From: Ignavibacteriota bacterium
GTDB lineage: Bacteria; Bacteroidota; Ignavibacteria; Tepidaquicellales; Tepidaquicellaceae
Length of the DNA stretch: 42,680 nt
Direction: 5' to 3'
Assembly (NCBI GenBank): GCA_003158365.1
Contig: PMIW01000235.1
Location: 8,173 to 50,852, forward strand
A program made the translations under genes and the position numbers. This document shows, piece after piece, positions 9,262-39,611 of the stretch (positions within the stretch are counted from its first letter, which is position 1; every line of letters begins with the position of its first letter). The notes below the pieces were generated by a model. The model saw nothing but the letters and a program-made list of their open reading frames with translations. It had not been told where the DNA came from and did no database searches.

Positions 9262-9262
9262 T

Positions 9263-9937
9263 ATGGGAACTTCAAACTGGCAAAATATTTCATATTGCAT
9301 TGAGTTAATCAGAAGGATTAATCCGAATTCCATACTCGATGTTGGCGCGGGCTTCGGCAGGTGGGGAATTCTTGGCAGGGAATTCCTTGAAATCTGGGAT
9401 GACAGTAATTATTCGGATAAATGGAACAGGAAAATCGATGCTGTCGAGATTTTCGAGGATTATGTGAAGCCATATCACAGCTATTTTTATGATAACGTTT
9501 ATATAGAAAATGCAGCCGATTTTTTTAAAAACAATGAAAGTAAATATGATTTGATTGTATGCGGAGACGTGATTGAACACTTTGAAAAAGAAAAGGGAGA
9601 AAAATTCATTGAAGACTGCCTGAAACACAGCAGGTATCTGATGATTAATATTCCCATAGGAAAGAACTGGGAACAAGGGGTAATAAACAACAATGAATTC
9701 GAAGTTCACAAAAGCATTTGGTATAATTCCGATTTTAGAAAATATCCTAACAGAAAGATTAAAAAATTCAGGGATTATATTTCAAGAAAATTCAGCGTGA
9801 TATTGATATCAAACGGTAAAATTGATTTAATATCCGAATACAAGAAAAAGTACGGCAAATATATTTTTGTAAAGAATTATTTGTCGGGCAAATTGAATCT
9901 CGGGTGGCTTGTAAAAATGCTGTCAGGAAATAAATAA
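9263..9937 (+). CDS. Class I SAM-dependent methyltransferase
   Basis: SILDVGAGFGRWGILGREF (motif I), DAVEIFEDYVKPYHSYFYDNVYIENAADFF, YDLIVCGDVIEHFEKE. Confidence 0.85.
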   Translation: MGTSNWQNISYCIELIRRINPNSILDVGAGFGRWGILGREFLEIWDDSNYSDKWNRKIDAVEIFEDYVKPYHSYFYDNVYIENAADFFKNNESKYDLIVCGDVIEHFEKEKGEKFIEDCLKHSRYLMINIPIGKNWEQGVINNNEFEVHKSIWYNSDFRKYPNRKIKKFRDYISRKFSVILISNGKIDLISEYKKKYGKYIFVKNYLSGKLNLGWLVKMLSGNK

Positions 9938-9943
9938 TTTAAG

Positions 9944-11056
9944 ATGGATTTAATATATATCGGAAGATATTGCAAAGATGAAATATTGAAGGGACCCGAA
10001 AAGGTCGCTAAAAGAATATTTAATAATTACACCGTAAATCATAAGTCTTTATTTATTGAATATTATTTTGACGGGAAAAAATACGGAATATTGAAAAAAT
10101 TATTTGGTAAAGAAACTGTTGAAACCATTAATGGAAGCGATGTTTGCAGAATGGGTATATTTTCTCTGTTTTTTGCACTTTTTAAGCTAAAACCAAAGAT
10201 AATACATCTTATTACATTTGAAAGATTTGCATTTGCCGCATATTTTTATAAAATGTTTTTTAAAACAAAAATAATTTACAGCCTGCACGGACTGATTGTT
10301 CACGAGAATAAATTTTTCAGGAAAGTAAACCGGTTTTTTAATTTAAAAGATAAAATTGCTGAAAGAATATTTGTAAAATATTCTAATGCGCTCATTTTGC
10401 TGTCAGGAAATTTCGGAAAATTACTTGAGAATTATTACACGGTTAATGATTCAAGGATAAGATATATAAAAAACGGTATAGACCCTGAATTTGCAGAAGC
10501 CGGAAAATTAAGAAAACCCTGTAAGAATAATCAGTTAAAAATTGTTTATATAGCAGATACAGACAGAAAAGAAAAAGGCTTCTCTTTTCTGAAGGATGCA
10601 CTGGAAACGATAAATATTGATATAGAGCTATACATTATTGATAAAAGCGAGCCCGTTCAAAATGAATTATTTATTAATAAACGCATAAAAACGTTTTATG
10701 TCGGGAAAATGAAGCCGGATGAACTTGCAGGGTATTTAACAGATAAAGATGTATTTATTTCATCGGGCAGCTATGAGCCCTTCAGCATAACAACCGTGGA
10801 ATGCATGGCCGCCGGCGTGATTCCCGTTGTTACAAAAGAAACCGGCGCATCTGAATCAATTGAACAAGGTAGAAACGGCTTTGTGTTTGACTACGGAGAT
10901 TGCGGAAAATTAAAGAGTATTTTAATTGAACTGAATAATGATAACGAATTAAAAGAAAATGTATCTGCAAGAGCTAAATACATTTATAATATTTTAAACT
11001 GGGATAAAATAACCGGGGATTATATTAACATTTATAAGTCATTGCAGCAAAAATAA
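9944..11056 (+). CDS. GT4-like glycosyltransferase
   Basis: IYSLHGLIVHE, RYIKNGIDPEFAEAG, KIVYIADTDRKEKGFSFL, VFISSGSYEPFSITTVECMAAGVIPVVTKETGASESI. Confidence 0.88.
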   Translation: MDLIYIGRYCKDEILKGPEKVAKRIFNNYTVNHKSLFIEYYFDGKKYGILKKLFGKETVETINGSDVCRMGIFSLFFALFKLKPKIIHLITFERFAFAAYFYKMFFKTKIIYSLHGLIVHENKFFRKVNRFFNLKDKIAERIFVKYSNALILLSGNFGKLLENYYTVNDSRIRYIKNGIDPEFAEAGKLRKPCKNNQLKIVYIADTDRKEKGFSFLKDALETINIDIELYIIDKSEPVQNELFINKRIKTFYVGKMKPDELAGYLTDKDVFISSGSYEPFSITTVECMAAGVIPVVTKETGASESIEQGRNGFVFDYGDCGKLKSILIELNNDNELKENVSARAKYIYNILNWDKITGDYINIYKSLQQK

Positions 11057-11057
11057 T

Positions 11058-12023
11058 ATGCCTGAAAATTTGATTTCAATAATAATGCCAATTAAGAATG
11101 CGGAAAAATATATCCGTGATTCTATACAGAGCATATTAAACCAGACATATAAAAATTTTGAATTTATAATTATAGATGATGGCTCGACTGACGGTTCTCA
11201 AAAAATAATCGAATCAATAAAAGATGACAGGATTAAATTTTATAAAAAAGAAAGTGCAGGATTAATTGAACAGCTTAATTTCGGACTTGGCGAAGCAAAA
11301 GGTGAATTCGTAGCAAGGATGGACGCAGACGATACTGTAAGTCCGGAAAAACTTGAAATGCAGATTAATTATTTGCTGAATAATAAAGATATTCAGCTTG
11401 TCGGAACAAATTTTACTTTTATTGATGAGAACGGAAAATCAATTATGCCTAAAAAACTTCCCGAAGAACACAGGGATATTGAATTTATGATGCCGTTTAT
11501 AGATTCTGTTTTGCATTCTTCAATATTGACATATAAGAGTGTACTTATCGATTCCGGAGGATATGATAAAGAATATTATTCTGCGGAAGATGATGAACTG
11601 TTTTTGAGGTTGCTTTCTCTCGGATATAAAATGCATAATATTCAAAGGTCGCTTTATAGATACAGGCTGGTTGAGCGTCCGTCCGAATATTACGATATGC
11701 AAAAAATCAATTACTATAAATGCAGCATAAAATATCTTGATAATCATTACACTGAAAAAACAGGTGAGTATTACCTGAGGATGGGGCTGCTGGAATATTA
11801 CAGGGGTAGTATTAATAAATCAAGGGAACATCTCCTGAAATCACTTAAGTATAAGGGTATAAAAAGGAAATATTTTTTCCGTTATATTCCTGTCACTTTT
11901 TTGGGTGATAAAATCGTGAATTTCCTGAGAAAGAAAAAAATTTCTTCAAAGGTTAATTCCTATTTTAATAAAAAATTCAAATACGATACTTATAATATTT
12001 CGGGTTCGGATGTGAAAAAATGA
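11058..12023 (+). CDS. GT2 family glycosyltransferase
   Basis: LISIIMPIKNAEKYIRDSIQSILNQTYKNFEFIIIDDGSTDGS, GEFVARMDADDTVSPEKLEMQ. Confidence 0.93.
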   Translation: MPENLISIIMPIKNAEKYIRDSIQSILNQTYKNFEFIIIDDGSTDGSQKIIESIKDDRIKFYKKESAGLIEQLNFGLGEAKGEFVARMDADDTVSPEKLEMQINYLLNNKDIQLVGTNFTFIDENGKSIMPKKLPEEHRDIEFMMPFIDSVLHSSILTYKSVLIDSGGYDKEYYSAEDDELFLRLLSLGYKMHNIQRSLYRYRLVERPSEYYDMQKINYYKCSIKYLDNHYTEKTGEYYLRMGLLEYYRGSINKSREHLLKSLKYKGIKRKYFFRYIPVTFLGDKIVNFLRKKKISSKVNSYFNKKFKYDTYNISGSDVKK

Positions 12024-13126
12024 TTTCAAATGTGAAAAATATTATTTCCCTGCTTATTTTCTTTTTCCTGAAATTGTTTTTCGGAAAAAGAAACAATCCC
12101 GAATTTAAAAACATATTGTTTTTTAACTCCGAAAAAATAGGGGACCTTGTAGTTTCTTCCATGATACTTGAAAATGATTCGGTTTTTCCCGATGATACCG
12201 GTGTTTATTTCCTGATAAAGAAAAAATTCTTCACGCTTTTTGAAAATTATAAGGGAAAAATAAAAATCCTAAAATATAATTATGAATTATATAAATGGTT
12301 TTTACCATACCGGTTTAAACTACTGGGAAGTATAAGAAAATTAAGATTAAATAAACTATATAATCTTACACCGGCAAGGGGAATGCTGAATGACGAAATA
12401 TCCCTGTTAAGCGGAGCAAATAATATATATGCAGTGAGTGGTGACAGGAAATACTTAAAAAGAGTTGCGGGCAATATTACTGATAAGGGCTATACGGAAA
12501 TTATGTTTAATAATATTAAGAACGAATATGAAAAGCATAAGGAATTATTGAAAGTATTTTCAGGCGGAAAAGAAATATTGTTAGATAACAATAAAACATT
12601 TATTGTGCAGGGAGACAATGTACTTATTAATAAAGATTTAGTACAGAAAGATGAATATATCGTTGTGTCACCGCTTTCCACGGAATTGGACAGAACATGG
12701 GGAGTGGAAAATTTTACCCGCCTGAGCACCGAATTGGCAGAGAAATATAAAATTGTTTTAATTGGTTCTCCGAAGGAGAAAACTCTGCTAGAAGAAATAA
12801 GAAATGGAAACGTAAATATAATTATAGATACATCACCACTGAATAAATTGCCCGGAATAATTAATCACTGCAGGCTATTTATCGGCGGGGATTCCGGACT
12901 GACACACATTGCTTTGAAGCTCGGAAAGCCGCTGCTCGCTGTACTTGACGGCGGATATTTCAACAGGTATTTCCCTTATAAAACCGAAGACAGTAAAAAC
13001 AATTATATTTTTAACCTGATGGATTGCTTTGAATGCGGTTTCGACTGCATATATGATAAAAAATATTGCCTGCTGAATATTACGTACGAAAGCGTATTAA
13101 ATAAAGTAAATGAAATATTAAAATAA
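12020..13126 (+). CDS. GT9 (heptosyltransferase-like) family glycosyltransferase
   Basis: NILFFNSEKIGDLVVSSMIL; C-terminal half VVSPLSTELDRTWGVENFTRLSTELAEKYKIVLIGSPKE, CRLFIGGDSGLTHIALKLGKPLLAVL. Confidence 0.88.
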   Translation: MISNVKNIISLLIFFFLKLFFGKRNNPEFKNILFFNSEKIGDLVVSSMILENDSVFPDDTGVYFLIKKKFFTLFENYKGKIKILKYNYELYKWFLPYRFKLLGSIRKLRLNKLYNLTPARGMLNDEISLLSGANNIYAVSGDRKYLKRVAGNITDKGYTEIMFNNIKNEYEKHKELLKVFSGGKEILLDNNKTFIVQGDNVLINKDLVQKDEYIVVSPLSTELDRTWGVENFTRLSTELAEKYKIVLIGSPKEKTLLEEIRNGNVNIIIDTSPLNKLPGIINHCRLFIGGDSGLTHIALKLGKPLLAVLDGGYFNRYFPYKTEDSKNNYIFNLMDCFECGFDCIYDKKYCLLNITYESVLNKVNEILK

Positions 13127-13130
13127 TAAT

Positions 13131-13853
13131 TTGATTTTTTTAAGTATAATAATACCGGTTTACAATAATTCGGATGTACTGAAATATAATCTTCCATATC
13201 TCGCAGGTTATCTTTCAAAAAAAGATTATGATTATGAAATTATTATTGTTGATGACGGAAGTTCTAATGGAAGCGAAGTTAAAAATATTTCCGATAATTT
13301 CAACTGCAGATATATTGTAAATGGAAAAAACTTCGGTAAGGGTTATTCAATAAAACAAGGAATGCTTAATTCGGATGGAAAGTACAGAGTCTTTACCGAT
13401 GCGGATATTCCCTATGAAATCGAAGACCTTGAAAAAATCATTGAGACTCTTGATAAGGAAAAATATGACATGGTTATCGGTGACAGGACACTGAATGCCT
13501 CTTCATATTTTAAGGATGTTTCAATTCTGCGTTCTTTCGGAAGCAAGTTTTTTTCACTCATTATCGGTGGAATTACTTCGGGGAATTTCAGCGATACGCA
13601 GTGCGGCTTAAAGGGTTTCACTGCTGAAACAGCTGTTGATTTATTTAACAGGACTAAAATAAACGGTTTTGCGATTGATGTTGAGCTGATATATCTCGCT
13701 TTTAAAAGAAATTATAAAATCGGTAAGATTCCCGTAAAGCTGAGAAAGCAGGGGGTTAGCACGGTGATGATTTTTAAACACGGTATATTAATGCTTTTTG
13801 ATTTATTTAAAATTAAATATTATCAACTAAGTAAAAAATATGAAAAAAAATAA
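13131..13853 (+). CDS. GT2 polyprenyl/dolichyl-phosphate sugar synthase-like glycosyltransferase
   Basis: LSIIIPVYNNSDVLKYNLPYLAGYL, YEIIIVDDGSSNGS, NFGKGYSIKQGMLNSDGKYRVFTDADIPYEIEDLEKII, DTQCGLKGF. TTG start. Confidence 0.87.
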   Translation: MIFLSIIIPVYNNSDVLKYNLPYLAGYLSKKDYDYEIIIVDDGSSNGSEVKNISDNFNCRYIVNGKNFGKGYSIKQGMLNSDGKYRVFTDADIPYEIEDLEKIIETLDKEKYDMVIGDRTLNASSYFKDVSILRSFGSKFFSLIIGGITSGNFSDTQCGLKGFTAETAVDLFNRTKINGFAIDVELIYLAFKRNYKIGKIPVKLRKQGVSTVMIFKHGILMLFDLFKIKYYQLSKKYEKK

Positions 13854-15456
13854 ATTCTATATTTATTCGTTTCTATTGTTTGCAATTTTTATAATTGCAG
13901 TTTCTTCGTTGGGAATATTCAAAACAGGTATCCTGTCGGATACTTTCGGAGATGCTTACACTGCCGTGAATTCAACTTTCTCCGACAAGTTAACGAATAA
14001 CCTGCAATATATTGACCGGTACAGGTACAGGCCTGTTCTTTTTCTGACTTTAAAGGGTATCGTGAATATTCAGAAATCTCTTGGAATATCTTATGATAAT
14101 TTTGTTTTTTATAAATTAATTAATCTGTTCTTATATATCTTGTTCGCCTTCATAGCAGGGATTATAATTTTCAGAATCTCAAAAGACATTATTTTGTCTG
14201 TATTTTCCGAAGCTGTGATTTTATTTTATCCTAACAACCTTCATAATTTATGCTGGTCTGCTGCTTATTTCGAAATATTGTGCGGAATATTTTTTCTTTT
14301 TTCATTTTTATATACATTGAAATACATAGCAGATAAAAAAACAATACTTCTGATAATATCGCTTGTATCATTTGCCTTTGCTTTGCTGACAAAGGAAATG
14401 GCAGTATCTTTTCCGTTTATATGTATATTACTGGTTTATATAATTTACGGGAAAGAAACCGTAGTAAAAAATAAAAATGTATTTATTCTGCAATTTGCGG
14501 TTTTACTGATATATTTTGTCTCGAAAATGTTTTTAATCAGAAGCATACCCGTGTTTTTGGGTAAATTTTTTCAGGGTGAATTCTGGGCAAATTCAGCACA
14601 AATAATTTTTAAAGGAATTATAGCATCGCTGATTCCGTATGATTTTTCCGTATTGAGAAATGAGCTGAAAGAGTATAATATCCTGGTCTTAATATATCTT
14701 ATTTTTACTGCTGTCTTTGTCGTGTTTTCAGTTATAGAGTTTGTAAAACAAAAGCAGGTAAAAAATATTTTATTTCTAATACTTGTATTTCTTTTTTCTC
14801 TGTCTCCGTTGATTTATGCAGGATATTTGCGTCCCCAGCTTATATTAATAACCTTTACAGTTATGATTGTCGGGACAATATGCACTGTGAAATTAAATTC
14901 GAAAATGATTCTGTACAGTTTGATGTTCATATTTGAAATCTGGCTTTTTCTGGATTATGGAGTAATCGACGGCTGGAAAACAGCATACGCAGAGGGAAAT
15001 GCGAGAATGGGAAATGTGATTAAAACCGACTTCAATTCTTCAAAGAAAAATATTATAATCGGTAATCCCGCAAGAATGCAGCAGTATTTTATGTACGATA
15101 ATATTATGTTCCCGTATAATTACTTTAAATATCATAGTTTTGTTATTAAGGATACAATTTTGGATTTGGTAAGAACTGTTTCACTTGATAAGAACTCATT
15201 AATTTCTGATATAATAGTAAATAAAACAGGTGAAAAGGAATATGAATTAATCTGTACGGGAAAAACACAATTCTTTTATCTTGACGGTGACGAAAAAGAA
15301 ATAAAAAATAATAACGGAATTAAAAATGATTTTATGTCTGTGCAATATCTTGAATTTAATAATTTAGGTAAACCCGTAATGGTATTGCTGAAAATATTAT
15401 CCGGTAACTGCGATTTCTATATTTTCCGTGGAAATAATCTGGTAAAACTAGATTGA
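13840..15456 (+). CDS. Polytopic membrane protein, putative GT-C fold glycosyltransferase
   Basis: About 10+ TM segments; early loop FGDAYTAVNSTFSDKLTNNLQYIDRYRYRPVLF resembling GT-C first-loop D..YRP motifs; co-directional with a polyprenyl-P GT. Confidence 0.6.
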   Translation: MKKNKFYIYSFLLFAIFIIAVSSLGIFKTGILSDTFGDAYTAVNSTFSDKLTNNLQYIDRYRYRPVLFLTLKGIVNIQKSLGISYDNFVFYKLINLFLYILFAFIAGIIIFRISKDIILSVFSEAVILFYPNNLHNLCWSAAYFEILCGIFFLFSFLYTLKYIADKKTILLIISLVSFAFALLTKEMAVSFPFICILLVYIIYGKETVVKNKNVFILQFAVLLIYFVSKMFLIRSIPVFLGKFFQGEFWANSAQIIFKGIIASLIPYDFSVLRNELKEYNILVLIYLIFTAVFVVFSVIEFVKQKQVKNILFLILVFLFSLSPLIYAGYLRPQLILITFTVMIVGTICTVKLNSKMILYSLMFIFEIWLFLDYGVIDGWKTAYAEGNARMGNVIKTDFNSSKKNIIIGNPARMQQYFMYDNIMFPYNYFKYHSFVIKDTILDLVRTVSLDKNSLISDIIVNKTGEKEYELICTGKTQFFYLDGDEKEIKNNNGIKNDFMSVQYLEFNNLGKPVMVLLKILSGNCDFYIFRGNNLVKLD

Positions 15457-16499
15457 ACATATTACACTTACATACAGGTCTGAATTTAACGGACGGAATT
15501 TCGAAAACCATTTATTTGATTGCGGGAAATAAGTCCGAAAAAAATAAGCATTTCGTAATTGCACTAGATGGTGATGCGGAAAGCAAGTTTACTGAAGCGG
15601 GTATAACGGTAAATTTTCTGAATCTTAAAAAGGATTATTTACCCGGAGTGATAAAATCCGTTAAAAACTATATCAGGGAAAATGACATCCGGATTCTTCA
15701 TTCGCATCACAGGTATTTTGACCTGATTTCTTACCTAGTTTCTTTTTCCTGCAAAGTAAAAAGAATAACATCCGTGCAGAGTTTTGTTTACGGGAAGAAA
15801 TTTTTCAGTTATAAATCACCCCTGCTGCTTGCAGCAGGGGAATCGGTGAAAAAACATTTAATTGAATATTTCGGAGTAAATGAAAATAGAATTAAGGTAT
15901 TTAATAATTTTATCGATGCAGAAGAAATTCCAAAAAACGATAATTCGGAAAATCTTAAGGCTAAGCTTAAAATCCCTCAAAATGCCTACCTGATTGGATA
16001 TATAGGCAGGTTCTCCGTTAAAGAAAAAGGAATAGATATACTTATAAATGCTTTCAAGTCATTCAATGAAAAACATCCTGATGCTTATTTACTGATGATT
16101 GGGGGCGGTGATGATATAAAATATTTTTCAAACCTTCCTGAGAATGTAATTATTCTGAGTTCGCAAAAAAACATTTTTGATTTTTACAGGATATTCTATT
16201 GCCTCGTCCTTCCTTCGAGAGTTGACCCGTTTCCGCTCACAGTTCTTGAAGCGGGAATGATGGAAGTTCCATTTATAGGCTCGGATGTAAACGGAATATC
16301 CGAAATTATTGAAGATGGAAAAGACGGTCTTTTATTCGAAAAAGAAAATATAAGTATGCTTTTGCAAAAGATGGAAAAATATTATAATGAAAAAGAATTC
16401 GCAAAAACATGTGCGCAAAATTTATATAAAAAGGTAGTGAGCAAATATAACGTAAAATCCGCTCTGGAAATTCTAAACAAAATATACGAAGAACTTTAG
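15453..16499 (+). CDS. GT4 family glycosyltransferase
   Basis: ILHLHTGLNLTDGISKTIYLIA, RILHSHHRYFDL, IGYIGRFSVKEKGIDILINAF, VLPSRVDPFPLTVLEAGMMEVPFIGSDVNGISEII. TTG start overlapping the previous stop. Confidence 0.9.
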   Translation: MNILHLHTGLNLTDGISKTIYLIAGNKSEKNKHFVIALDGDAESKFTEAGITVNFLNLKKDYLPGVIKSVKNYIRENDIRILHSHHRYFDLISYLVSFSCKVKRITSVQSFVYGKKFFSYKSPLLLAAGESVKKHLIEYFGVNENRIKVFNNFIDAEEIPKNDNSENLKAKLKIPQNAYLIGYIGRFSVKEKGIDILINAFKSFNEKHPDAYLLMIGGGDDIKYFSNLPENVIILSSQKNIFDFYRIFYCLVLPSRVDPFPLTVLEAGMMEVPFIGSDVNGISEIIEDGKDGLLFEKENISMLLQKMEKYYNEKEFAKTCAQNLYKKVVSKYNVKSALEILNKIYEEL

Positions 16500-16500
16500 C

Positions 16501-18018: not shown

Positions 18019-18036
18019 CACACATTAATTTATTTG

Positions 18037-18780
18037 ATGGAAACCGTAAATATACTTGATGTAAATATACTTAATACATCCTACGACGAGATTTCAACTC
18101 TGGTCGAAACCAAAGTAAATAAAAGGGAGAAATTTTCATTTCATAATGTCAACGCAAGTATTTTGCTGGAGTATTGTAAAAATGATGCTTTTAAGAAAAA
18201 TCTAAAATCATTTTCTGCATTACTTGGTGATGGAATAGGAATTTACTGGGCATCAAGGATATTATACGGCAAAAACGGATTAAAGAAAAGAATTACTGGC
18301 ACGGATTTATACTATTATATCTTAACTCTGGCAGATAAAGACAAATTGAACTGTTTTTTCTTCGGTGGAAGCAGTGATGCGGTAAAGATATTACCCGAAA
18401 CTCTTCAAAAAAAATTCCCAAACTTACGTATTTCAGGAATATTACCCCGTGAAACTGAATTCAGCGCTGAAACCCTCGAAACAATAAAAAATTCTAATTC
18501 CGATATTTTATTTATAGGGCTTGGAACACCTCTTCAGGAAGAATGGATTGCCTCACACTTTGACTCGGTTGATATTCCCGTTCAAATTGCAATTGGGAGC
18601 GGTATTGAGTTTATTTCAGGTGTAAAAAAAAGGGCGCCTGAATTTTTCCGAAATTACGGGCTGGAATGGCTTTACAGGGTGTACCTTGAACCTGAAAGAC
18701 TATGGAAAAGATACGTTTTTGGTATTCCTATTTTTATGTTTAAAATCATTGTATTAAAAGTTAAATTACTTCTTAAATAG
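18037..18780 (+). CDS. WecG/TagA/CpsF (GT26) family glycosyltransferase
   Basis: FSFHNVNASILLEYCKND, ALLGDGIGIYWASRILYGKNGLKKRITGTDLYYYIL, FFFGGSSDAVKILPETLQKKFPNL, DILFIGLGTPLQEEWIASH, PEFFRNYGLEWLYRVYLEPERLWKRY. ORF track starts at TTG 18034; the adjacent ATG at 18037 is the likelier start. Confidence 0.95.
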   Translation: METVNILDVNILNTSYDEISTLVETKVNKREKFSFHNVNASILLEYCKNDAFKKNLKSFSALLGDGIGIYWASRILYGKNGLKKRITGTDLYYYILTLADKDKLNCFFFGGSSDAVKILPETLQKKFPNLRISGILPRETEFSAETLETIKNSNSDILFIGLGTPLQEEWIASHFDSVDIPVQIAIGSGIEFISGVKKRAPEFFRNYGLEWLYRVYLEPERLWKRYVFGIPIFMFKIIVLKVKLLLK

Positions 18781-18794
18781 TTCAAAAAATAATA

Positions 18795-21700
18795 ATGAAA
18801 AAGTTAATACTCGTTTTCATTTTTTTGGGATTTAACTTTTCCCTTGCACAAAATTACAACTGGATAACTCCCAATAAAGACTATCTTAAATTGTATGTAA
18901 TACAGGACGGTATTTACAGAATAAATAAAATCGATTTTGTAAATGCAGGCGTGAATCCCGCAAGTATTGACCCCCGCACAGTCAAAGTCTTTTCCAAAGG
19001 AAATCAAATTCCCGTTTTCTTCTATGGTGAAAGCGACGGCGTATTTAACGATACAGATTATTTCGATTTCTACGGACAGAGAAATTACGGCGGTTTGACA
19101 AATACTTATAAGGAGCAATCGGGCGCATCGGTTGTAGATTATGTTACGGATGAGTATTATAATATGTATTCCGATACAGGTGTTTACTGGGTAGGGTGGG
19201 ATGGTGCTCAGGGGCTCAGATATTCAGATTATACTTTTTCATCTAACGTTAATTTTCCCCAGAACTATTTTACACAAAACCTGCATTTTGAAAAAGATTC
19301 CATTTATTCGATGGGGATTACAGTAGATGCAGGGTCGGATTTCAGGTATTTCAATACGGAAAAAGTTACTCAGGAAGGTTGGTACTGGAGACAATTTGAA
19401 TCGTTTAACTATGTCTCGGACACTTTCAGTTTGCCTAATTTATCCGCAGTTCCGCAAACTTGCTCTATAAAGCTATTTGCTTATCCGAATTCATATCAGA
19501 GCAGCGGGCATTGCCTTATAATAAAAATTAATTCTACCAGATTAGATACAATCATCAGAACCGATTATAATAAATTCGATACGACAATTAACTTCCCGGG
19601 TTCATTGCTGTCTTCGACTTCTGTTAACAGAATTACAATTTCTTATACAACAAGAGATTTAAATAGCGGATATCTTTATTTTGATTACTACGCTTTAAAT
19701 TACCCGAATACATTTACATTTGTAAATAACCTGTTAAGTTTTAAAACAGGCATCGCCGACAGTACATCTAAAAAATTCAGAATTAACGGATTCGTAAATA
19801 ATGAAATAAATATCTATGATACAAAAAATAATCTGAGGATAGTTAATTATGTTACTTCAGCCGATACACTTGCTTTTACCGGCAAGGGGAATGGAAATTA
19901 CGAGTTAGTTAATAAATACAATACAACCAAACCATACAGGATAAAAAGAAAGCAGGTACCGAACCTTGCATCGGGTGCGAATGGGGCCGATTATCTTATA
20001 GTATATAATAAGCTGTTTGAATCATCCGCCGAGCAGTTAAGAGCTTACAGAAATTCACATGATAATTTCAGAAGTGTAAAAGCAGAAATCGAGGATGTCT
20101 ATGATATATTTAATTACGGGATGGAAGACCCTGTCGCAGTCAGGAATTTTGTGAGATATGCAAACGCAAACTGGCAGTCGCCTGCATTAAAATATCTCTG
20201 CCTGTTCGGAAGGGGTTCCGTAGATCCAAAGCAGATATTCGGTAATTCTGTTTACTATCAGAATTATGTTCCCGTTTACGGTAATCCCGCATCGGACGGA
20301 TATTTTGCAACTTTGAATCCGGGTACTTTTGTTTACTGTCCGCAGATTTCAGTCGGCAGAATTCCCGCTTACACATCTCAGGAAGCGCAGGATATTGTTA
20401 ATAAAATAATCGGTTACGAAAGCAATCCGCTGGATGTGTGGATAAAAAAAACAACATTGATTACAGGCGGATTTACATTTTCCGACCAGGTTCAGTTTAT
20501 TACGGCATCGAATAATCTTATAAATTCATATATTGCAGTTCCTCCGCCTGTCAGTTTTCCGCAAAGGATATACCGAACGGATACTTCGGGACAGGTTTCT
20601 TATAACTTCGAAGATTCAATAAAAAATACAATTAACAGGGGAACGCTGATTCTCAACTATATCGGTCACGCCGCCACATCAACCTGGGATAACGGTATAA
20701 GAGACCTGAATATTTTAAGCAACGGAAATAAAAATCCGTTAATATTCAGCATGACCTGTTTTACGGGCAAGAATGCATCGACTGATCCTGTTGACGGCAG
20801 GGGATTCGGTGAAAAGTTTTTGTATCTTCCCGGTAAAGGTGCAATAGGATTTATCGGAACAACAGGCTGGAGCTTCTTTCCCGGCGGCGGAAATACTTTA
20901 AACAGTTTTCTTTTTAAAAGTTTCGGAGCCGATAGTTTAAGGCGTATTGGCGATATACTGAAATCTGCCGAGACATATATGAAACTTCTCGATACGACTT
21001 CCTTTGTTAATAAAAACACTATAAACAGTTATAATCTTCTCGGTGACCCCGCATCGAAATTGAATATGCCCCCATATCCCGAATTTGATATTCAAATGAC
21101 CGATTATCAGCTGCTGCCGATATTTCCGTCTCTGCGCGAACCAATTACGCTTAAGCTCTTCCCGAAGAATCTCGGCACGAGAGCGGATTCCTGTAAAATC
21201 AGGTTCCAGCTTTTAAAAAATAATATCAGCAACAGGATAACGGATACGGTTGTAAGAAATTTTGATTTTGTAGATTCAATTAATTATAATTTTAGAATTG
21301 ATTCTGCGGGAATATATGTTATGAAAGTAATTCTCGATGTGGATAACTGGTATACAAGAGAGATTGAACAGAATAATACTATCTTTGTTCCGATACCCCT
21401 TAAAAACGTGGCATTTATTCCACTTAAGCCGGTCGATAATTCCGTCATACAGGGTGATTCGGTAACATTTGTTGGAATAAATCCGAACATAGACCCGAAG
21501 AAATATAATTTGAAAGTTTATGTTCAGTTCGATACGAGTATTTATTTCAATTCACCGTTGAACCGTATATTCTATAAAACCTGCGACTCGGGAGTGATTA
21601 CAAAATTCAAAGTTATACTGCCTGTTCTTGATACAAACAGGGTGTATTTCTGGAGAACAAATTCTGTAATAAATAATACCGATACGTCGGGTTGGACAAC

Positions 21701-23651
21701 TGCAAGCAGATTTCTTTATTTACCTTCTTTTATTTTTAGTGATAAAAGACCGCTGAAAAGTATTTCCGATTCTTCGGTTACGATTTATAAAAAATATGCT
21801 TCCCAATACAGTGTAACTGATTTGGGAAATACAATTACTGCACCCGACGGAATTAAATTAAGAAATTTTACAGGCGACCTGTTTGCTCAGTCCTGGGGAG
21901 GTGACCCGTGGGATGCTTCATTTTTCAGGGTAAACGGAAATGAAATATTTTTACTTGACCCGGTACTTCACTGGGGAGGGCTAAATATTATTAAGGTACG
22001 GAAGAATAACGGTGCCTATGTGGAATATAAACATTTTAAATTTACCGACCCTATTTCATCGGATTCAGTTATAAATTATTTAAATACTTTTAACAGCAAT
22101 TATATTCTTATGGTTGTTAAAAATGTGCAGAACGGTGTTACGGATTCAATTCGTCCGGCTCTGGTAAACAGGTTTCATGATTTTGGAAGTACAAAAATTG
22201 ATTCTGTGCATCTTATTTCTTATGACAGATGGAGTTTTATAAGTTATCCGACAAATACAGGAAACACTGTTGCTGAAAGTTTTCTTGCAAGCGGTACTCC
22301 AGATGCCCCGGCAATTTCCGCTATGGCGCCGCAGTTCCAATATGACAGCGGATATGTATTCCATAATTTTGGACCTGCATCGTTTTACAGGAATTTCTCA
22401 TGGAACCAGTTCCTGTTTCCATTCAGTTCACTCAGGTTCGATGTTTACGGAATTAACAGAGATAATCAGAACATATTGTTGTATTCCAATATAACATCAA
22501 ATAATAATTTCAGTCTTGATTCGCTGAAATCTTATATTTACCCGAATCTTCTGCTTAAAACGAAATTTAATATCGATTCAATAAACGGAACAACATCACC
22601 TGTATTACAGTCTCTAAAATTTAACTACGTACCGCCTGCGGAGCTTATTTCGGATAATTATTCATTTGTGAAAAGCGATACTGTCGTTCAGGAAGGCGAT
22701 TCCGTGCGGGTCAGCGTGAAATATTATAACGTGGGTTTTATTGGTGCTACTGCTTCCATAAATACATGGTCGGTCAGTTCTCCTACGGGTGTAAAGGTAT
22801 TAAGAACCGATACGGTAAATTTATATATGCCGGTTGACAGTTCGCTTCGTTCAGGTATTTTAATTAACACTTCGAGACTGAGAAATATTCAAAAGCCAAG
22901 AGACACCGTTTATATATTTTTTGAAACGAAACTGAAAAGCACAGAGAACGAATTTTATACTTATAACAACACCGCCATTACATCCGTTGTCGTTACGAGT
23001 GATTCGATAAATCCCTCGCTGGATGTGACTTATGACGGATTGAAAGTCCTTACGGGTGATTTTATCCAGTCTAAACCTGTAATAGTAGCAAAATTTCTCG
23101 ACGACAGCAAAATGCAGATAAGGGATACTTCCAATATCAGGGTTTATCTCGATACTCACTATGTGCCTTATTATTTAGGCGGGTTAAAAAATCCTGAAAT
23201 AGAAATAATATTCCCTGCAAATAAATTTCTTCAGGCGACAGTAGTTTATAAACCCACACTTTCAGATGGCGTGCACGATTTTATGTATGTTGCATACGAT
23301 TTATCTAATAATTATGCCGATACAATAAGATATTTCTTATCGGTGAACCCGGATTTGAAAATATATGATTTGAATACTTATCCTAACCCGATGAAAAACC
23401 AGACTAACTTTATGTTTAATTTATCAGGGAGTAATATACCTAATAATTCCAGGATTAAAATATATACTGTCGCAGGCAGACTGGTAAAGACTATCAGCTT
23501 TGTACCAAATATAGGATATAACCAGATTCAGTGGGACGGAAGAGATAATGACGGTGATTATATGGCAAACGGTGTGTACTTATATAAGCTTATAATCGAA
23601 GGAAACTCCAAAAAGGAAACTTCCATTCAAAAGCTTGTTATTTTGAAATAA
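18795..23651 (+). CDS. C25 (gingipain-fold) peptidase, PorU/PorU2-like type IX secretion sortase homologue (copy 1)
   Basis: Signal peptide MKKLILVFIFLGFNFSLAQ; PorU-like N-terminus YLKLYVIQDGIYRINKIDFVNAGV..VKVFSKGNQIPVFFYGE; C25 core with putative His (20667-20669, NYIGHAA) and Cys (20757-20759, FSMTCFTGKN); C-terminal FlgD-Ig-like QIQWDGRDNDGDYMANGVYLYKL. Confidence 0.85.
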   Translation: MKKLILVFIFLGFNFSLAQNYNWITPNKDYLKLYVIQDGIYRINKIDFVNAGVNPASIDPRTVKVFSKGNQIPVFFYGESDGVFNDTDYFDFYGQRNYGGLTNTYKEQSGASVVDYVTDEYYNMYSDTGVYWVGWDGAQGLRYSDYTFSSNVNFPQNYFTQNLHFEKDSIYSMGITVDAGSDFRYFNTEKVTQEGWYWRQFESFNYVSDTFSLPNLSAVPQTCSIKLFAYPNSYQSSGHCLIIKINSTRLDTIIRTDYNKFDTTINFPGSLLSSTSVNRITISYTTRDLNSGYLYFDYYALNYPNTFTFVNNLLSFKTGIADSTSKKFRINGFVNNEINIYDTKNNLRIVNYVTSADTLAFTGKGNGNYELVNKYNTTKPYRIKRKQVPNLASGANGADYLIVYNKLFESSAEQLRAYRNSHDNFRSVKAEIEDVYDIFNYGMEDPVAVRNFVRYANANWQSPALKYLCLFGRGSVDPKQIFGNSVYYQNYVPVYGNPASDGYFATLNPGTFVYCPQISVGRIPAYTSQEAQDIVNKIIGYESNPLDVWIKKTTLITGGFTFSDQVQFITASNNLINSYIAVPPPVSFPQRIYRTDTSGQVSYNFEDSIKNTINRGTLILNYIGHAATSTWDNGIRDLNILSNGNKNPLIFSMTCFTGKNASTDPVDGRGFGEKFLYLPGKGAIGFIGTTGWSFFPGGGNTLNSFLFKSFGADSLRRIGDILKSAETYMKLLDTTSFVNKNTINSYNLLGDPASKLNMPPYPEFDIQMTDYQLLPIFPSLREPITLKLFPKNLGTRADSCKIRFQLLKNNISNRITDTVVRNFDFVDSINYNFRIDSAGIYVMKVILDVDNWYTREIEQNNTIFVPIPLKNVAFIPLKPVDNSVIQGDSVTFVGINPNIDPKKYNLKVYVQFDTSIYFNSPLNRIFYKTCDSGVITKFKVILPVLDTNRVYFWRTNSVINNTDTSGWTTASRFLYLPSFIFSDKRPLKSISDSSVTIYKKYASQYSVTDLGNTITAPDGIKLRNFTGDLFAQSWGGDPWDASFFRVNGNEIFLLDPVLHWGGLNIIKVRKNNGAYVEYKHFKFTDPISSDSVINYLNTFNSNYILMVVKNVQNGVTDSIRPALVNRFHDFGSTKIDSVHLISYDRWSFISYPTNTGNTVAESFLASGTPDAPAISAMAPQFQYDSGYVFHNFGPASFYRNFSWNQFLFPFSSLRFDVYGINRDNQNILLYSNITSNNNFSLDSLKSYIYPNLLLKTKFNIDSINGTTSPVLQSLKFNYVPPAELISDNYSFVKSDTVVQEGDSVRVSVKYYNVGFIGATASINTWSVSSPTGVKVLRTDTVNLYMPVDSSLRSGILINTSRLRNIQKPRDTVYIFFETKLKSTENEFYTYNNTAITSVVVTSDSINPSLDVTYDGLKVLTGDFIQSKPVIVAKFLDDSKMQIRDTSNIRVYLDTHYVPYYLGGLKNPEIEIIFPANKFLQATVVYKPTLSDGVHDFMYVAYDLSNNYADTIRYFLSVNPDLKIYDLNTYPNPMKNQTNFMFNLSGSNIPNNSRIKIYTVAGRLVKTISFVPNIGYNQIQWDGRDNDGDYMANGVYLYKLIIEGNSKKETSIQKLVILK

Positions 23652-23711
23652 AAGGACTTTTATACCGAAACTAGATATATGAAATTTGAGTTTTAAAGTT
23701 TATATTATAAT

Positions 23712-26700
23712 ATGAATCAAAAATTTTACTTTTTTATAATTCTTCTTATTGCTAATGTAACTTTCTCCCAGAATTACAACTGGATTACTCCCAATCAGCC
23801 GTACCTGAAAATGTATGTGGTTGATGACGGAATTTACAGAATCAATAAAATTGATTTTACTAATGCAGGCATAAACACCGCTGCAATCGACCCGAGAACC
23901 GTGAAAGTATATTACAAGGGAAACCAGATACCGATATTTTTTAACGGTGAGCAGGACGGGGTTATTGACGATACCGACTTTTTTGATTTTTACGGACAGA
24001 GAAATTACGGCGGTCTGACAAATACTTATAACAGTAATAACCAGGTAGTATATGTTACTGATGAATATAATGATTTATATTCCGACACAAGTGCATACTG
24101 GGTAGGATGGGGCGGAGCATACGGTACAAGATTTCAGAATTATAATTACACTTCCTATACTCTTTACCCGCTTGATTATTTTTACAAAAAATTACGCTAC
24201 GAAAAAGATTTAATTTATTCATACGGTGAGCAGATTAATGACCAGGACTACAGGAATTTTAACAACGAAAAATTTCAGGGTGAAGGCTGGTTCTGGATGG
24301 ATATGCTGTGGCAGAATACAATCTCGCAGACATTTACATCACCGCTGCTGTCAACTTCTCAGCCGTGTAAAGTTAAAATTTTTGCTTATCCGAAAAACCA
24401 GAGCTCGACCATTACAAATGAACATATGGTTGTGCTAAGCTTTAATAATAATCTGTTAGACACGCTTAAGGTAAATCATTTTGCAAGGTTCGATACTACA
24501 CTTTATTTTCCGTCTTCTTACCTGAATCCTTCTTCAAACAATACGGCAAAGGTTAAATATGCTCCGCCCGCAACATTTACCGAAGGTGAATTGTATTTTG
24601 ATATGTTCGAAATTTCCTATCCGAAGAGATTCGAATTTGATACTAATAAGGTAAGCTTTTCGACCGGCTCTGCCGATTCCACATCGAAGATTTTTAAAAT
24701 AAAAGGGTTTAATAACTCAAATCCAATCAGCATATATGATGTAAAGTACGGATACAGGATAACAAATTTCAATCTTTCTGCAGATACGCTTGTGTTTACA
24801 GGTAAAGGCGATGGTATATATGAAATCTTAAATAAATATATCACTAAAAAACCATTTAGGATTAAACAACGCCAGGTTCCTGCTTTAGCTTCTTCATCAA
24901 ACGGAGTTGATTACCTGGTCATCTATAATAAACTTTTCGAAACACAGGCGGAACAACTGAGAGCTTACAGAAACAGTCACGACGGTTTCAGGTCGGTAAA
25001 ATCAGAGATGGAAGATATTTATGATATATTTAATTATGGAATTGAAAATCCTGTAGCTGTCAGAAATTTTGTAAAATATGTTTATGATAACTGGACTCAG
25101 CCGAGAATATCTTATGTTTGCCTGTTTGGCAGAGGTTCTCTGGACCCGAAGAAAAATGCCGCAACATCTGTTTTCTACCAGAACTACGTTCCTGTATTCG
25201 GGAACCCGCCAACAGACGGGTATTTCGCGAATATGATTCCCGGAACTTTTTCTTATTATCATCAGCTTGGTATTGGCAGGCTTCCCGCTTTTACAATACA
25301 GGAAGCTCAGGATATGGTTAATAAAATTATTTCATATGAAAGCCAGCCGTTCGATACATGGTTTAAAAAATCCGTATTCGTTTCAGGAGGCTATAATGCA
25401 ACAGACCAGGGACAGTTCACGACACAATCGAATACATATCTTAATACGTATATTAATGTTCCTCCCTTGTCAATGGATGCTACAAAAATATTCCTGAAGG
25501 ATTCATCCGGACTGGTGACATTTAATTATTCGGATTCAATTAAAAATTCAATTAACAGGGGTGCATTGCTTGTAAGTTATATAGGGCATTCGGGAAATGG
25601 TTACTGGGATTATGCATATTCGGACCCCAATATATTAACAAACGGAAACAAACTTCCGCTTTTATTCAGCATGACCTGTTTCACGGGAAAGAATTCGGAA
25701 GCCAATGCACGGGGATTTGGAGAACAGTATTTAACCGCTCCCGGAAAAGGAGCAATAGGTTTTATCAGCACGACAGGCTGGAGTTTCTTCCCCGGCGGAG
25801 GAAATATTTTTGAACAGTTTTTCTTGACGGGTTTAAGTACGAACAATCTAAGAAGATTAGGTGATTTAATGAAATACGCTTCCACGACAATGGCACCCGA
25901 GTCGTTATATTTTGCTCAAAGAAATACCATAAACTGCTATAACCTTCTTGGTGACCCGGCATTGAAACTTTTGCTTCCGACCCATCCTGAATTTGACATT
26001 CAATTGACAGATTATATTTTATCAAACCCGTATTCTGTTGTAAGGGAAAATATTGTATTGAAAACATTTCCGAAAAATCTCGGTACTTATGCAGACTCCT
26101 GCAAAATAAGATTTCAGGTTTTGAGAAGTAACCAGAACCACAGCATAAAAGATACGATAATCCGGGGCTGGAGTTTCGTGGATACCGTTGTTTATAATTT
26201 TAAGCTGGATACAGTGGGAATTTACGGGATGAAAATAACGCTCGATGTTGATAACTGGTACCCTGCGGAATCAAAGCTGAATAACGTTATTACGTTTCCC
26301 CTTAATATAAAAAATACCGCATTTGTCCCGATTAAACCGATCGATAATATGATTATTAAAAGGGATACTGTTGAATTTGTCGGAATAAATCCTAACATTA
26401 ATACTTCGTCAAATACAGTCAGATTAATTGCACAAATAGATACATCGGTAACATTTACTTCTGCAATGACTCAGACTTATTTTAACAATAACATGACAGG
26501 GGCAGCCACAAAGTTTAAGGTCAGAATCCCTGTGCTCGATTCAAACATTGTTTATTACTGGAGGCTGAATGCAATCGTAAACAATGCCGATACACTGGGC
26601 TGGTCCGAAATCAGGAGGTTTAAATATAACACAACTCTGCCTCCGTCATTTTCTTCCAAAGGCAGTACAAAAATTAATTTGACCGATAACAGTTATGCTG

Positions 26701-28595
26701 ATTTACCGGGTGATTCAAATATTACTGTTTACAAAAATAAATTCGGACAGTATAATAATTATGAATTATCTTATATTGGCGGTGATAACAACGGGTTGAA
26801 AATTGTAAATTTGCAGGGTAGCCTTATTGCGAGTTCCTGGCAGGGCGATCCCTGGGCTCCGACTTATTATGCAGTTAATAATAATTATACATATCTCGTA
26901 AGGTCGCAAATAGATTGGAGCGGATTGGTTTTGGTTAAGGTGAATAAAACAAACGGATTCGTAATCGACACAAAACATATTTATATGTCTGACGCATCTT
27001 CATCGGATTCTGTATTAAACTTTTTAAATACTTTTGATGCAACGCATATACTTATGGCGGTAAAATTGATTCCAACTGCTTTAACGGTAAGTAATTTTAA
27101 TATTAACACAAAAAATAAATTCGTACAGTTCGGTAGTATTAAAGTTGATTCGGTGGAATTTTTAGCGTGGGACAGATGGAGCTTTATCAGCTATCCCAAT
27201 ACCCCGAATCCGGTTACGTCGGAAGGATACGACAATTCGAACGATATCCCCGTAAACAGCACTATGCAGCCTACATTCAAATTCATAAGCGGAAAAATTT
27301 ACCAGACATTCGGACCTGCTAAAACCTGGAAGAATTTTTCCTGGCAGCAGACTCTTTATCCCGGCACGACTATAAAATTCGACGTGTATGGCATAGACAG
27401 GTTTAACGCGGAAAATCTTGTAATGTCCGATATTGCTACAAACAGTAATGTTGACCTGCAGTCAATCAACGCATATACATATCCGAAATTAAAACTTGTT
27501 GCAAAATTAAATATAGATTCTATTACGGGTTCTCAGTCACCCGTGTTCCAGTCCTTAAAATTCAACTATGTCGCACCATCTGAGCTTGCACTGGATTATA
27601 ATACATTTATAAAATCCGATTCGCTGCTCAACGGCGGAGACAGCCTTGGCATTGCACTGGCATACTATAATGTCGGATATGTTGATTTATACGGCTATAC
27701 AAGGGATATATATTCATTCGATAATAACGGGCAGAGGGTACTTCTTAAATCCGAAACCAGCACGGCAACTCTAAAAATCGACAGCGTGAATTATGTAAAA
27801 ACAAATGTAAAGTTATCGGGTTTGCCTAATCTGAAAAAATACAATAATTATATTGTTCTGTATGTCGAAGCGACTCCTCTTATTCCTCAAAATGATTTAT
27901 ATGCATATAATAATATCACGACAACCAACATAGTTGTAAAAGGAACTTCACAAGTATACAGCCTCGAAATGTATTCCGACGGAACTAAAGTGAACGGTGG
28001 TGAATTCGTAAGAAATAAACCCGAAATGGAAGTTAAAATAAAAAATAAATCGGGAGTAAATGTAAATGCTTTCGATACATCCGATTTTAAATTATTTATA
28101 AATAATATTTACCAGCCGTATAATTCAAGAACAGCAAGCGGGATAAGAGTCGAGGGAAGCGATTTAAAATCGGGCGGTATATCGATAAGATTCAATCCGT
28201 CTTTGCCGATGGGAGAGAGCATTTTTAAACTGGTATCCAGAAAAAGTAACGGAGAGGATTTTGATACTTTAAAATATTCCGTCTTTGTCTCCAACCAGCT
28301 CTTGATTAAAGATTTATATAATTATCCGAACCCGATGAGAAACCAAACCGGATTTATTTTCAATCTCGGGGGAAATAATCCGCCGAGCGCCTGCAGAATA
28401 AAAATTTATACTGTATCCGGAAGACTTGTAAAGTTAATAAACTCGGCAGTGAACATCGGATTTAACCAGATTAACTGGGATGGACGCGATAACGAAGGCG
28501 ACTACATGGCAAACGGAGTTTACTTCTATATAATGACTATCGAAGGTGAAACAAAAATAGATTCACCAATACAAAAACTTGTAATATTAAAATAA
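23712..28595 (+). CDS. C25 (gingipain-fold) peptidase, PorU/PorU2-like type IX secretion sortase homologue (copy 2)
   Basis: Full-length paralogue of the preceding gene; signal peptide MNQKFYFFIILLIANVTFSQ; putative His (25587-25589, SYIGHSG) and Cys (25677-25679, FSMTCFTGKN); C-terminal QINWDGRDNEGDYMANGVYFYIM. Confidence 0.85.
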   Translation: MNQKFYFFIILLIANVTFSQNYNWITPNQPYLKMYVVDDGIYRINKIDFTNAGINTAAIDPRTVKVYYKGNQIPIFFNGEQDGVIDDTDFFDFYGQRNYGGLTNTYNSNNQVVYVTDEYNDLYSDTSAYWVGWGGAYGTRFQNYNYTSYTLYPLDYFYKKLRYEKDLIYSYGEQINDQDYRNFNNEKFQGEGWFWMDMLWQNTISQTFTSPLLSTSQPCKVKIFAYPKNQSSTITNEHMVVLSFNNNLLDTLKVNHFARFDTTLYFPSSYLNPSSNNTAKVKYAPPATFTEGELYFDMFEISYPKRFEFDTNKVSFSTGSADSTSKIFKIKGFNNSNPISIYDVKYGYRITNFNLSADTLVFTGKGDGIYEILNKYITKKPFRIKQRQVPALASSSNGVDYLVIYNKLFETQAEQLRAYRNSHDGFRSVKSEMEDIYDIFNYGIENPVAVRNFVKYVYDNWTQPRISYVCLFGRGSLDPKKNAATSVFYQNYVPVFGNPPTDGYFANMIPGTFSYYHQLGIGRLPAFTIQEAQDMVNKIISYESQPFDTWFKKSVFVSGGYNATDQGQFTTQSNTYLNTYINVPPLSMDATKIFLKDSSGLVTFNYSDSIKNSINRGALLVSYIGHSGNGYWDYAYSDPNILTNGNKLPLLFSMTCFTGKNSEANARGFGEQYLTAPGKGAIGFISTTGWSFFPGGGNIFEQFFLTGLSTNNLRRLGDLMKYASTTMAPESLYFAQRNTINCYNLLGDPALKLLLPTHPEFDIQLTDYILSNPYSVVRENIVLKTFPKNLGTYADSCKIRFQVLRSNQNHSIKDTIIRGWSFVDTVVYNFKLDTVGIYGMKITLDVDNWYPAESKLNNVITFPLNIKNTAFVPIKPIDNMIIKRDTVEFVGINPNINTSSNTVRLIAQIDTSVTFTSAMTQTYFNNNMTGAATKFKVRIPVLDSNIVYYWRLNAIVNNADTLGWSEIRRFKYNTTLPPSFSSKGSTKINLTDNSYADLPGDSNITVYKNKFGQYNNYELSYIGGDNNGLKIVNLQGSLIASSWQGDPWAPTYYAVNNNYTYLVRSQIDWSGLVLVKVNKTNGFVIDTKHIYMSDASSSDSVLNFLNTFDATHILMAVKLIPTALTVSNFNINTKNKFVQFGSIKVDSVEFLAWDRWSFISYPNTPNPVTSEGYDNSNDIPVNSTMQPTFKFISGKIYQTFGPAKTWKNFSWQQTLYPGTTIKFDVYGIDRFNAENLVMSDIATNSNVDLQSINAYTYPKLKLVAKLNIDSITGSQSPVFQSLKFNYVAPSELALDYNTFIKSDSLLNGGDSLGIALAYYNVGYVDLYGYTRDIYSFDNNGQRVLLKSETSTATLKIDSVNYVKTNVKLSGLPNLKKYNNYIVLYVEATPLIPQNDLYAYNNITTTNIVVKGTSQVYSLEMYSDGTKVNGGEFVRNKPEMEVKIKNKSGVNVNAFDTSDFKLFINNIYQPYNSRTASGIRVEGSDLKSGGISIRFNPSLPMGESIFKLVSRKSNGEDFDTLKYSVFVSNQLLIKDLYNYPNPMRNQTGFIFNLGGNNPPSACRIKIYTVSGRLVKLINSAVNIGFNQINWDGRDNEGDYMANGVYFYIMTIEGETKIDSPIQKLVILK

Positions 28596-33960: not shown

Positions 33961-34584
33961 ATGGATAACAAAGAAAAAATAATAGATTCTAACACAGAAA
34001 AAAGAATTCTCGAAGCCGCAAGAAGTGTTTTTCATATTAAAGGACTTGCTGGTGCCAGAATGCAGGAAATTGCAGACGAGGCAAAAATAAACAAGGCAAT
34101 GCTAAACTATTATTACAGGAGTAAGGATAAACTTTTTGAAGCGGTGTTTAAAGAAGCTGCTCAGAATTTCTTTCCTGAAGTATTTCAAATGGTAAATTCC
34201 GATTTGCCGCTCTTTGAAAAAATTGAATCCTTCGTCAGTGGTTATTTGACTTTCCTTCAAAGTAATATGTGTGTCCCCGGATTTATCATAAACGAACTTG
34301 CACAGAACCCGCAGAGATTAAAGGATTTTTTTATCGAGCACAAAATAAGACCTCCTGAAAAGTTTCTTCAGGAAATAAGAGACGCTGTAGATTCAAAAGA
34401 AATTATTCCAATCGAACCGATGACACTGGTTCTGAATATATTATCGCTGTGCATTTTTCCCGTGGTTGCAAAACCAATTATTGAAACCGTATTTAATTTA
34501 TCGGAAGAACAGTATGCGGATATGATTGAAGCGAGAAAAAAACTTGCAGCTCAATTTATTATTAATGCAATAAAAATCAAATAA
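33961..34584 (+). CDS. TetR/AcrR family transcriptional regulator
   Basis: RILEAARSVFHIKGLAGARMQEIADEAKINKAMLNYYYRSKDKLFEAVFKEA (TetR HTH). Confidence 0.95.
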   Translation: MDNKEKIIDSNTEKRILEAARSVFHIKGLAGARMQEIADEAKINKAMLNYYYRSKDKLFEAVFKEAAQNFFPEVFQMVNSDLPLFEKIESFVSGYLTFLQSNMCVPGFIINELAQNPQRLKDFFIEHKIRPPEKFLQEIRDAVDSKEIIPIEPMTLVLNILSLCIFPVVAKPIIETVFNLSEEQYADMIEARKKLAAQFIINAIKIK

Positions 34585-34585
34585 T

Positions 34586-36728: not shown

Positions 36729-36737
36729 TGCTGAATT

Positions 36738-38500: not shown

Positions 38501-38501
38501 T

Positions 38502-39608: not shown

Positions 39609-39611
39609 TAT

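Follow-up and report, generated by a model that had tools for sequence, protein, structure and literature searches.

Tandem PorU2-like C25 proteins encoded beside a WecG-ending glycan cluster in Ignavibacteria

The stretch of Ignavibacteriota bacterium DNA considered here (42,680 nucleotides (nt) of contig PMIW01000235.1, called the window) encodes two giant tandem proteins of the C25 peptidase family, proteins A and B, immediately downstream of a glycan cluster closed by a gene for a WecG/TagA/CpsF glycosyltransferase. Both are similar to PorU of the type IX secretion system (T9SS) and to PorU2, a putative second T9SS sortase whose function is not established (NF052324). As a conserved gene association, the pairing of glycan genes with sortase-like genes has strong support. 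Its best explanation, held with moderate confidence, is that A and B are an additional, glycan-dedicated pair of T9SS sortase-like transpeptidases.

Family, catalytic residues and C-terminal domains

The genes for A (P0001) and B (P0002) are intact open reading frames (ORFs) with verified start codons. Each product has a signal peptide followed by the N-terminal block YNWITPN..YLK.YV..DGIYRINKIDF, and ends with a FlgD-like domain (FlgD_ig, 29.0 bits in A and 27.1 in B, cut-off 27); these features, together with coordinates and lengths, are all as described in an earlier sequence-only reading of the window. The mature N-termini would start with Gln (LAQ/FSQ; window 18795-18860 and 23712-23780), resembling the Q-rule for signal-peptide-cleaved N-termini in Bacteroidetes. 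The C25 assignment made in that reading was borne out by a profile search, Peptidase_C25 (PF01364, cut-off 23) being matched over its whole 374-position model by A (E 3.7e-69, 234 bits) as well as B (E 2.3e-70, 238 bits). A Pfam scan of both proteins found no Propeptide_C25, a domain present in all three scanned canonical PorUs of relatives vs 2 of 23 PorU2-like proteins. Family tests place A and B within C25, on the PorU/PorU2 branch, with scores short of both curated cut-offs. In appearance and gene arrangement they resemble a sortase, and their sortase function is putative.

The conserved His and Cys proposed earlier as catalytic candidates (H625/C655 in A, H626/C656 in B) occupy, in a profile alignment, the same columns as the GHG motif and the C of PorU (6za2) and of the gingipain RgpB (1cvr). 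Both residues are present in 61 of 62 PorU2-like proteins from two families of the order, the window's own and a second one, the lone exception (G005b) carrying Lys at the His position. At that locus, the A copy is split into two ORFs and the B copy has the His-to-Lys change (L077:36-4937 and L077:5776-9882), which is decay or an assembly error. An AlphaFold2 model of the catalytic half, computed for six sequences, was too poor for a three-dimensional check of the active site (predicted local distance difference test (pLDDT) 37).

The C-terminal domains (CTDs) were compared by means of two hidden Markov models (HMMs) built in this analysis, one for PorU CTDs and one for cargo CTDs. All 66 PorU2-like CTDs score higher with the PorU model, with medians of 78.7 vs 58.1 bits. 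The cargo model is favoured by 43 of 46 cargo CTDs, and because these trained it, the 66/66 figure is the informative one. PorA, PorU and PorZ keep their CTDs after secretion (PMC11285876). The PorU-type CTD of A and B, taken with the retained CTDs of PorU and PorZ, favours a retained surface component.

These comparisons bear on the possibility that A and B are secreted cargo proteases, that is, gingipain-like exoenzymes acting on outside proteins. Such enzymes would likewise have a C25 fold, a signal peptide and a C-terminal domain, and weak matches to cargo tails do occur: both proteins exceed the low cut-off of 23 for the type A sorting domain TIGR04183 (28.5 and 29.3 bits, to be read with caution), while Por_Secre_tail (PF18962, cut-off 27) reaches only 19.2 bits in A and does not match B. 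The family profile nevertheless lies nearer to Porphyromonas gingivalis PorU (6za2, E 1.2e-49) than to gingipain R (1cvr, E 1e-15), the CTDs are of the PorU type throughout, and the genes are near-universal, vertically inherited and operonic, as exoenzyme genes are not. An exoenzyme role is thus distinctly unlikely.

Linkage to glycan genes

A sample of 59 relatives was searched with the PorU2-like protein and with PF03808. The window's family and the second family of the order contribute 44 genomes, and in 39 of these the gene immediately before a PorU2-like gene, and co-oriented with it, is WecG. The remaining five comprise one with a single methyltransferase gene in between (G012), two cut at contig ends (G006 and G039), one that is 77% complete (G003) and one whose cluster runs off the contig end (G016). 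Joint loss of WecG and PorU2 in the last two was considered and rejected, since it is at Wzx that the G016 contig ends and since G003 is incomplete. A crude binomial null for the adjacency gives about 1e-136, a value far too strong because the genomes are related, so that phylogenetic breadth is the better argument.

Among 27 measured junctions, an overlap of exactly 4 nt occurs in 7 and a gap of at most 18 nt in 19, as would be expected for translationally coupled genes. In the window, WecG ends at 18780 and A starts at 18795; the 14-nt gap holds no terminator-like site, which agrees with the sequence-only reading, though such sites are at chance level region-wide (8 found vs 7.1 expected). 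A consensus promoter scan of the region also stayed at chance level and is uninformative.

The linkage extends through the class. Among 297 genomes sampled evenly over the phylum, 28 of the window's class encode a long PorU2-like protein together with WecG; the two genes lie within 3.1 kb in 24 of these and within 10 kb in 26. Ten class stretches that were read all have glycosyltransferase-like genes near PorU2, eight of them with a WecG match. In several class genomes (G051, G074, G099, G273 and G317), WecG is on the opposite strand yet still adjacent. Genomes of the window's order repeatedly carry the flippase, methyltransferase, GT4 and GT2 genes (GT, glycosyltransferase family), with a variable gene immediately before WecG. 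The fixed element of the locus is WecG-PorU2, with neighbours and strand changing around the pairing. The earlier reading had named, as a finding that would speak against it, relatives whose C25 pair is unlinked from glycan genes; in two families of the order and much of the class, the linkage held.

The two paralogues form sister clades (99 and 100% in the Shimodaira-Hasegawa-like approximate likelihood ratio test, SH-aLRT) in which the same branching is mirrored over nine genomes, the WecG-adjacent copy being of the A type in each. Because the two subtrees mirror each other, a single old duplication, with both copies kept in tandem, explains A and B. A second tandem pair of separate origin (x1/x2) occurs in genera g2, g9, g10, g12 and g13. 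Where it was read (L138, L140, L142, L145 and L146), this pair adjoins a different, GT2-rich glycan cluster without WecG, which, where complete, includes a giant protein of 1954-2474 amino acids (aa) (L142:3405-10775; also L138, L140 and L145); the one scanned, of 2456 aa, has five GT2 domains. Since the x1/x2 pairs sit beside this separate cluster, the pairing of a PorU2 tandem with a glycan locus occurs at two different locus types.

The linkage could also be inherited gene order without functional meaning, as every case lies in one class and none outside. This is highly improbable: WecG-PorU2 persists while its neighbours and strand change, 4-nt overlaps recur, and there is a second, independent glycan-PorU2 locus. 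Of the earlier proposal that the locus pairs glycan synthesis with a dedicated duplicated PorU-like set, the conserved association stands, in two families and much of the class and with a second glycan locus having its own pair; the dedicated function is the part that stays conditional.

The FAM3-like domain, the cluster and its surroundings

Protein A carries a FAM3/POMGnT1-stem-like (ILEI) domain, at about residues 1062-1161, and protein B a weaker match to it. Neither this domain nor the PorU-type character of the CTDs was noted in the sequence-only reading. The family profile of this domain (A5), which includes the weak domain of B, matches FAM3B (E 7e-16), FAM3C and FAM3A, and also the POMGnT1 stem domain (E 4e-13). 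The domain is present in 22 of 23 related PorU2-like proteins scanned and was reported in none of three canonical PorUs scanned. The POMGnT1 stem binds N-acetylglucosamine (GlcNAc) through R129, D179 and R207, and FAM3C and FAM3A are likewise sugar-binding (PMC9802357). In two deep-branching members, G045 and G051, R, D and R stand at the corresponding places. An AlphaFold2 model of the FAM3-like region, from four sequences, is too poor to use (pLDDT 41).

The standard attachment machinery is encoded elsewhere in the genome. Contig C200 carries the third C25 gene, a canonical PorU adjoining a PorV/PorQ-family gene (NF033709, 90.6 bits, cut-off 90), and PorZ is found on contig C116 (324 bits, cut-off 260). 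In P. gingivalis, PorZ delivers anionic lipopolysaccharide (A-LPS) to PorU (PMC8545088). Because PorU, PorV and PorZ are all present, the A/B pair is an addition to the standard set, and the notion of A and B as the only sortases of the genome falls. One or both proteins might instead be mainly PorZ-like scaffolds or glycan handlers, keeping the glycan product surface-bound or handing it over to canonical PorU; the FAM3-like domain, a weak PorZ match at the C-terminus of L074 and the loss of the catalytic His in one second copy (G005b) would fit such a role. It is quite improbable, even less credible than the exoenzyme role, given the near-complete retention of both catalytic residues and a PorZ above cut-off already in the genome.

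In genus g7 (G007 and G019), the same glycan cluster carries genes resembling WbpA, WbpB, WbpD and WbpS. They sit upstream of WecG-PorU2 (L053:8556-16016 and L066) and encode an acetyltransferase, a uridine diphosphate (UDP)-GlcNAc 3-dehydrogenase-like protein, a nucleoside diphosphate (NDP)-sugar dehydrogenase and an eps_aminotran_1 amidotransferase. The WbpS-like gene falls in TIGR03108, the family to which WbpS belongs. Linking-sugar genes of the Wbp type as a general part of the cluster were rejected, being confined to one genus.

The features of the window are collected in Table 1. The 538- and 505-aa hydrophobic proteins of the cluster are probably multi-span and perhaps GT-C-like enzymes. 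The divergent Wzy_C gene overlaps a T9SS cargo gene (window 5121-7911), an arrangement repeated in several relatives. Just past the locus lies a TetR-TolC-HlyD-ABC-ABC-permease-permease export cassette (window 33961-40733), which has 74-88% identity in G001 and also adjoins PorU2B in genus g8. In the second family, the conserved next gene after PorU2 encodes a repeat protein of about 895 aa with a type A sorting domain (L069:198-2885 and equivalents), a candidate dedicated substrate.

Table 1. Features of the window discussed in the text, with the evidence for each
Feature	Position	Strand	Evidence or remark
O-antigen ligase/polymerase-like (Wzy_C) with tetratricopeptide repeats (TPR), divergent from cluster	6034..7911	-	PF04932 E 8e-21
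Wzx-type flippase, first gene of glycan cluster	8017..9261	+	PF01943 E 1.8e-14; kept in order
S-adenosylmethionine (SAM) methyltransferase-like	9263..9937	+	PF13489 E 7.5e-5, below cut-off; kept in cluster of relatives
GT4 glycosyltransferase	9944..11056	+	PF00534 E 3.5e-19
GT2 glycosyltransferase	11058..12023	+	PF00535 E 6.8e-35
GT9 (heptosyltransferase-like)	12020..13126	+	PF01075 E 1.2e-14
GT2 glycosyltransferase	13131..13853	+	PF00535 E 1e-23
Conserved hydrophobic protein, probably membrane, 538 aa	13840..15456	+	no Pfam match
GT4-like glycosyltransferase	15453..16499	+	assigned by reading the sequence, without Pfam scan; cluster homologues in relatives
Conserved hydrophobic protein, probably membrane, 505 aa	16501..18018	+	no Pfam match
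WecG/TagA/CpsF glycosyltransferase, 248 aa, closes cluster	18034..18780	+	PF03808 E 3.4e-47; TIGR00696 over cut-off
PorU2-like C25 protein A, WecG-adjacent 'a' paralogue	18795..23651	+	1618 aa
C25 catalytic domain, A (residues 400-756)	19992..21062	+	Peptidase_C25 profile
Catalytic His candidate H625, A	20667..20669	+	alignment; motif YIGHAATSTW
Catalytic Cys candidate C655, A	20757..20759	+	alignment; motif FSMTCFTG
FAM3/POMGnT1-stem-like (ILEI) domain, A (residues 1062-1151)	21978..22247	+	PF15711 30.9 bits, cut-off 27
PorU-type CTD, A	23379..23642	+	PorU-CTD HMM 83.9 bits vs cargo-CTD HMM 62.1
PorU2-like C25 protein B, tandem 'b' paralogue	23712..28595	+	1627 aa
C25 catalytic domain, B (residues 401-753)	24912..25970	+	Peptidase_C25 profile
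Catalytic His candidate H626, B	25587..25589	+	alignment; motif YIGHSGNGYW
Catalytic Cys candidate C656, B	25677..25679	+	alignment; motif FSMTCFTG
FAM3/POMGnT1-stem-like domain, B	26922..27194	+	PF15711 20.3 bits, E 8e-4, below cut-off 27
PorU-type CTD, B	28323..28592	+	PorU-CTD HMM 72.3 bits vs cargo-CTD HMM 61.0

A possible attachment route and its counterparts

In P. gingivalis, PorU removes the CTD of cargo and amide-links the cargo to an aminoacylated Wbp/Vim sugar on A-LPS (PMC7468200, PMC13086638), the linking sugar being made by the Wbp pathway (PMC7468200). By analogy, the glycan of 8017-18780 is a candidate acceptor, and PorU2A and PorU2B (proteins A and B) are candidate transpeptidases. 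The Wzx flippase and the glycosyltransferases, WecG being the last, would assemble an oligosaccharide and flip it. Once exported via Sec and the T9SS, PorU2A and PorU2B would remain surface-bound through a PorU-type CTD that is not cleaved. There, the Cys/His dyad would cleave T9SS cargo at its C-terminal signal, with transfer of the acyl group to an amine of the cluster's glycan, the FAM3/POMGnT1-stem-like module, lacking in canonical PorU, possibly assisting the transfer by binding glycan. The two proteins may cooperate in these steps. The acceptor-glycan analogy is supported by the Wbp-like genes of genus g7, in that one genus only.

Several findings weigh against this explanation. Indeed, both proteins miss the curated cut-offs for PorU2 (NF052324, 361.2 bits for A and 372.0 for B, cut-off 450) and for PorU (NF033707, 358.6 and 349.4 bits, cut-off 420), so that the earlier label 'PorU2-like' does not amount to formal PorU2 membership; the 879-position PorU2 model is spanned end to end (positions 7-879 in A, 4-879 in B). 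Outside the class, none of the 12 genomes with both genes has them close together, and ten PorU2-like loci read there have no glycan cluster, three of them lying near one to three genes weakly similar to glycosyltransferases. The wider PorU2-like family is thus not generally coupled to glycans, and a general linkage was rejected on the evidence of these loci. The glycan cluster of the window is without Wbp-like genes, which occur in the cluster in one genus only, and a WbpB-like query against the genome gave no match at E 1e-60; for these two reasons, the linking chemistry in this organism may differ from the Wbp pathway. The POMGnT1 contacts R129, D179 and R207, sought in A and B by alignment, are unmatched, so sugar binding by their FAM3-like domains is a suggestion. 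The four CTD proteins that the window holds besides the A/B pair were counted correctly in the sequence-only reading, which took them as possible cargo, but they lose their value as evidence for the pairing: TIGR04183 is matched at least 150 times in the 3.0-Mb genome (G000), a density at which two to three are expected per 42.7 kb, and CTD cargo genes are at background density in the window, not concentrated. A dedicated cargo set made of these four was therefore rejected. The genome-wide number of type A sorting domains in itself represents a very large secreted repertoire.

Some of these points would equally suit surface peptidases that trim sorting signals or mature surface proteins without any glycan transfer and are co-expressed with envelope assembly. 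Members of the C25 family include plain endopeptidases, the gingipains; the cleavage dyad is intact while no acceptor-binding residues are identifiable, and the FAM3-like domains of the window do not have the known sugar-contact residues. On the other hand, an exclusive, class-wide pairing with one glycosyltransferase exceeds what general co-expression needs, and so does the presence of a separate pair at a second glycan locus. Peptidases of this kind are an unlikely explanation.

The preferred reading, a glycan-dedicated pair of sortase-like transpeptidases, can be carried further, tentatively and with less confidence than the reading itself. Ignavibacteria would follow a modular rule of one glycan locus, one sortase pair: WecG-ending clusters and GT2-rich clusters, the latter with the giant five-domain GT2 protein, would each come with a tandem PorU2 pair of its own, probably heteromeric, that would attach the glycan in question to T9SS proteins alongside PorU/PorV/PorZ. 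This is possible rather than probable.

Among known systems, PorU (NF033707, 6za2) shares with A and B the aligned C25 His/Cys, about 730 residues of co-linear similarity and the PorU-type CTD, whereas A and B have the FAM3-like domain in addition and are longer by about 250 residues, and their motifs are GHA/TCFTG where PorU has GHGS/ASC. The canonical PorU of this genome is a separate gene. PorU2 is similar to A and B in length and architecture; a member from another class scores 911 vs their 361 and 372, and such relatives lie outside glycan loci. Gingipain R (RgpB, 1cvr/4ief) has the C25 fold with an aligned dyad, but its similarity is far weaker, and unlike A and B it has a cargo-type CTD and is without a glycan operon. 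The exosortase EpsH of the PEP-CTERM system is, like A and B, a putative transpeptidase encoded with exopolysaccharide genes (PMC1569441); unlike them, it has an unrelated membrane protein fold, an inner-membrane location and another sorting signal. As to the A-LPS linking-sugar pathway of P. gingivalis (Wbp/Vim), Wbp-like A, B, D and S genes are in the g7 cluster, not in that of the window. A literature search, thin on subscription papers, found no mention of PorU2 and no pairing of WecG with the T9SS.

The locus is a T9SS parallel to the link between exosortase and exopolysaccharide genes, on an unrelated fold. To our knowledge, only in a few oral Bacteroidota has the acceptor glycan of a T9SS sortase been characterised in detail. 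When a sortase-like gene stays tied to one glycosyltransferase and its cluster through a class, a candidate acceptor pathway and a candidate enzyme are named together, and it thereby becomes directly testable to which sugar T9SS cargo is attached outside Bacteroidia.

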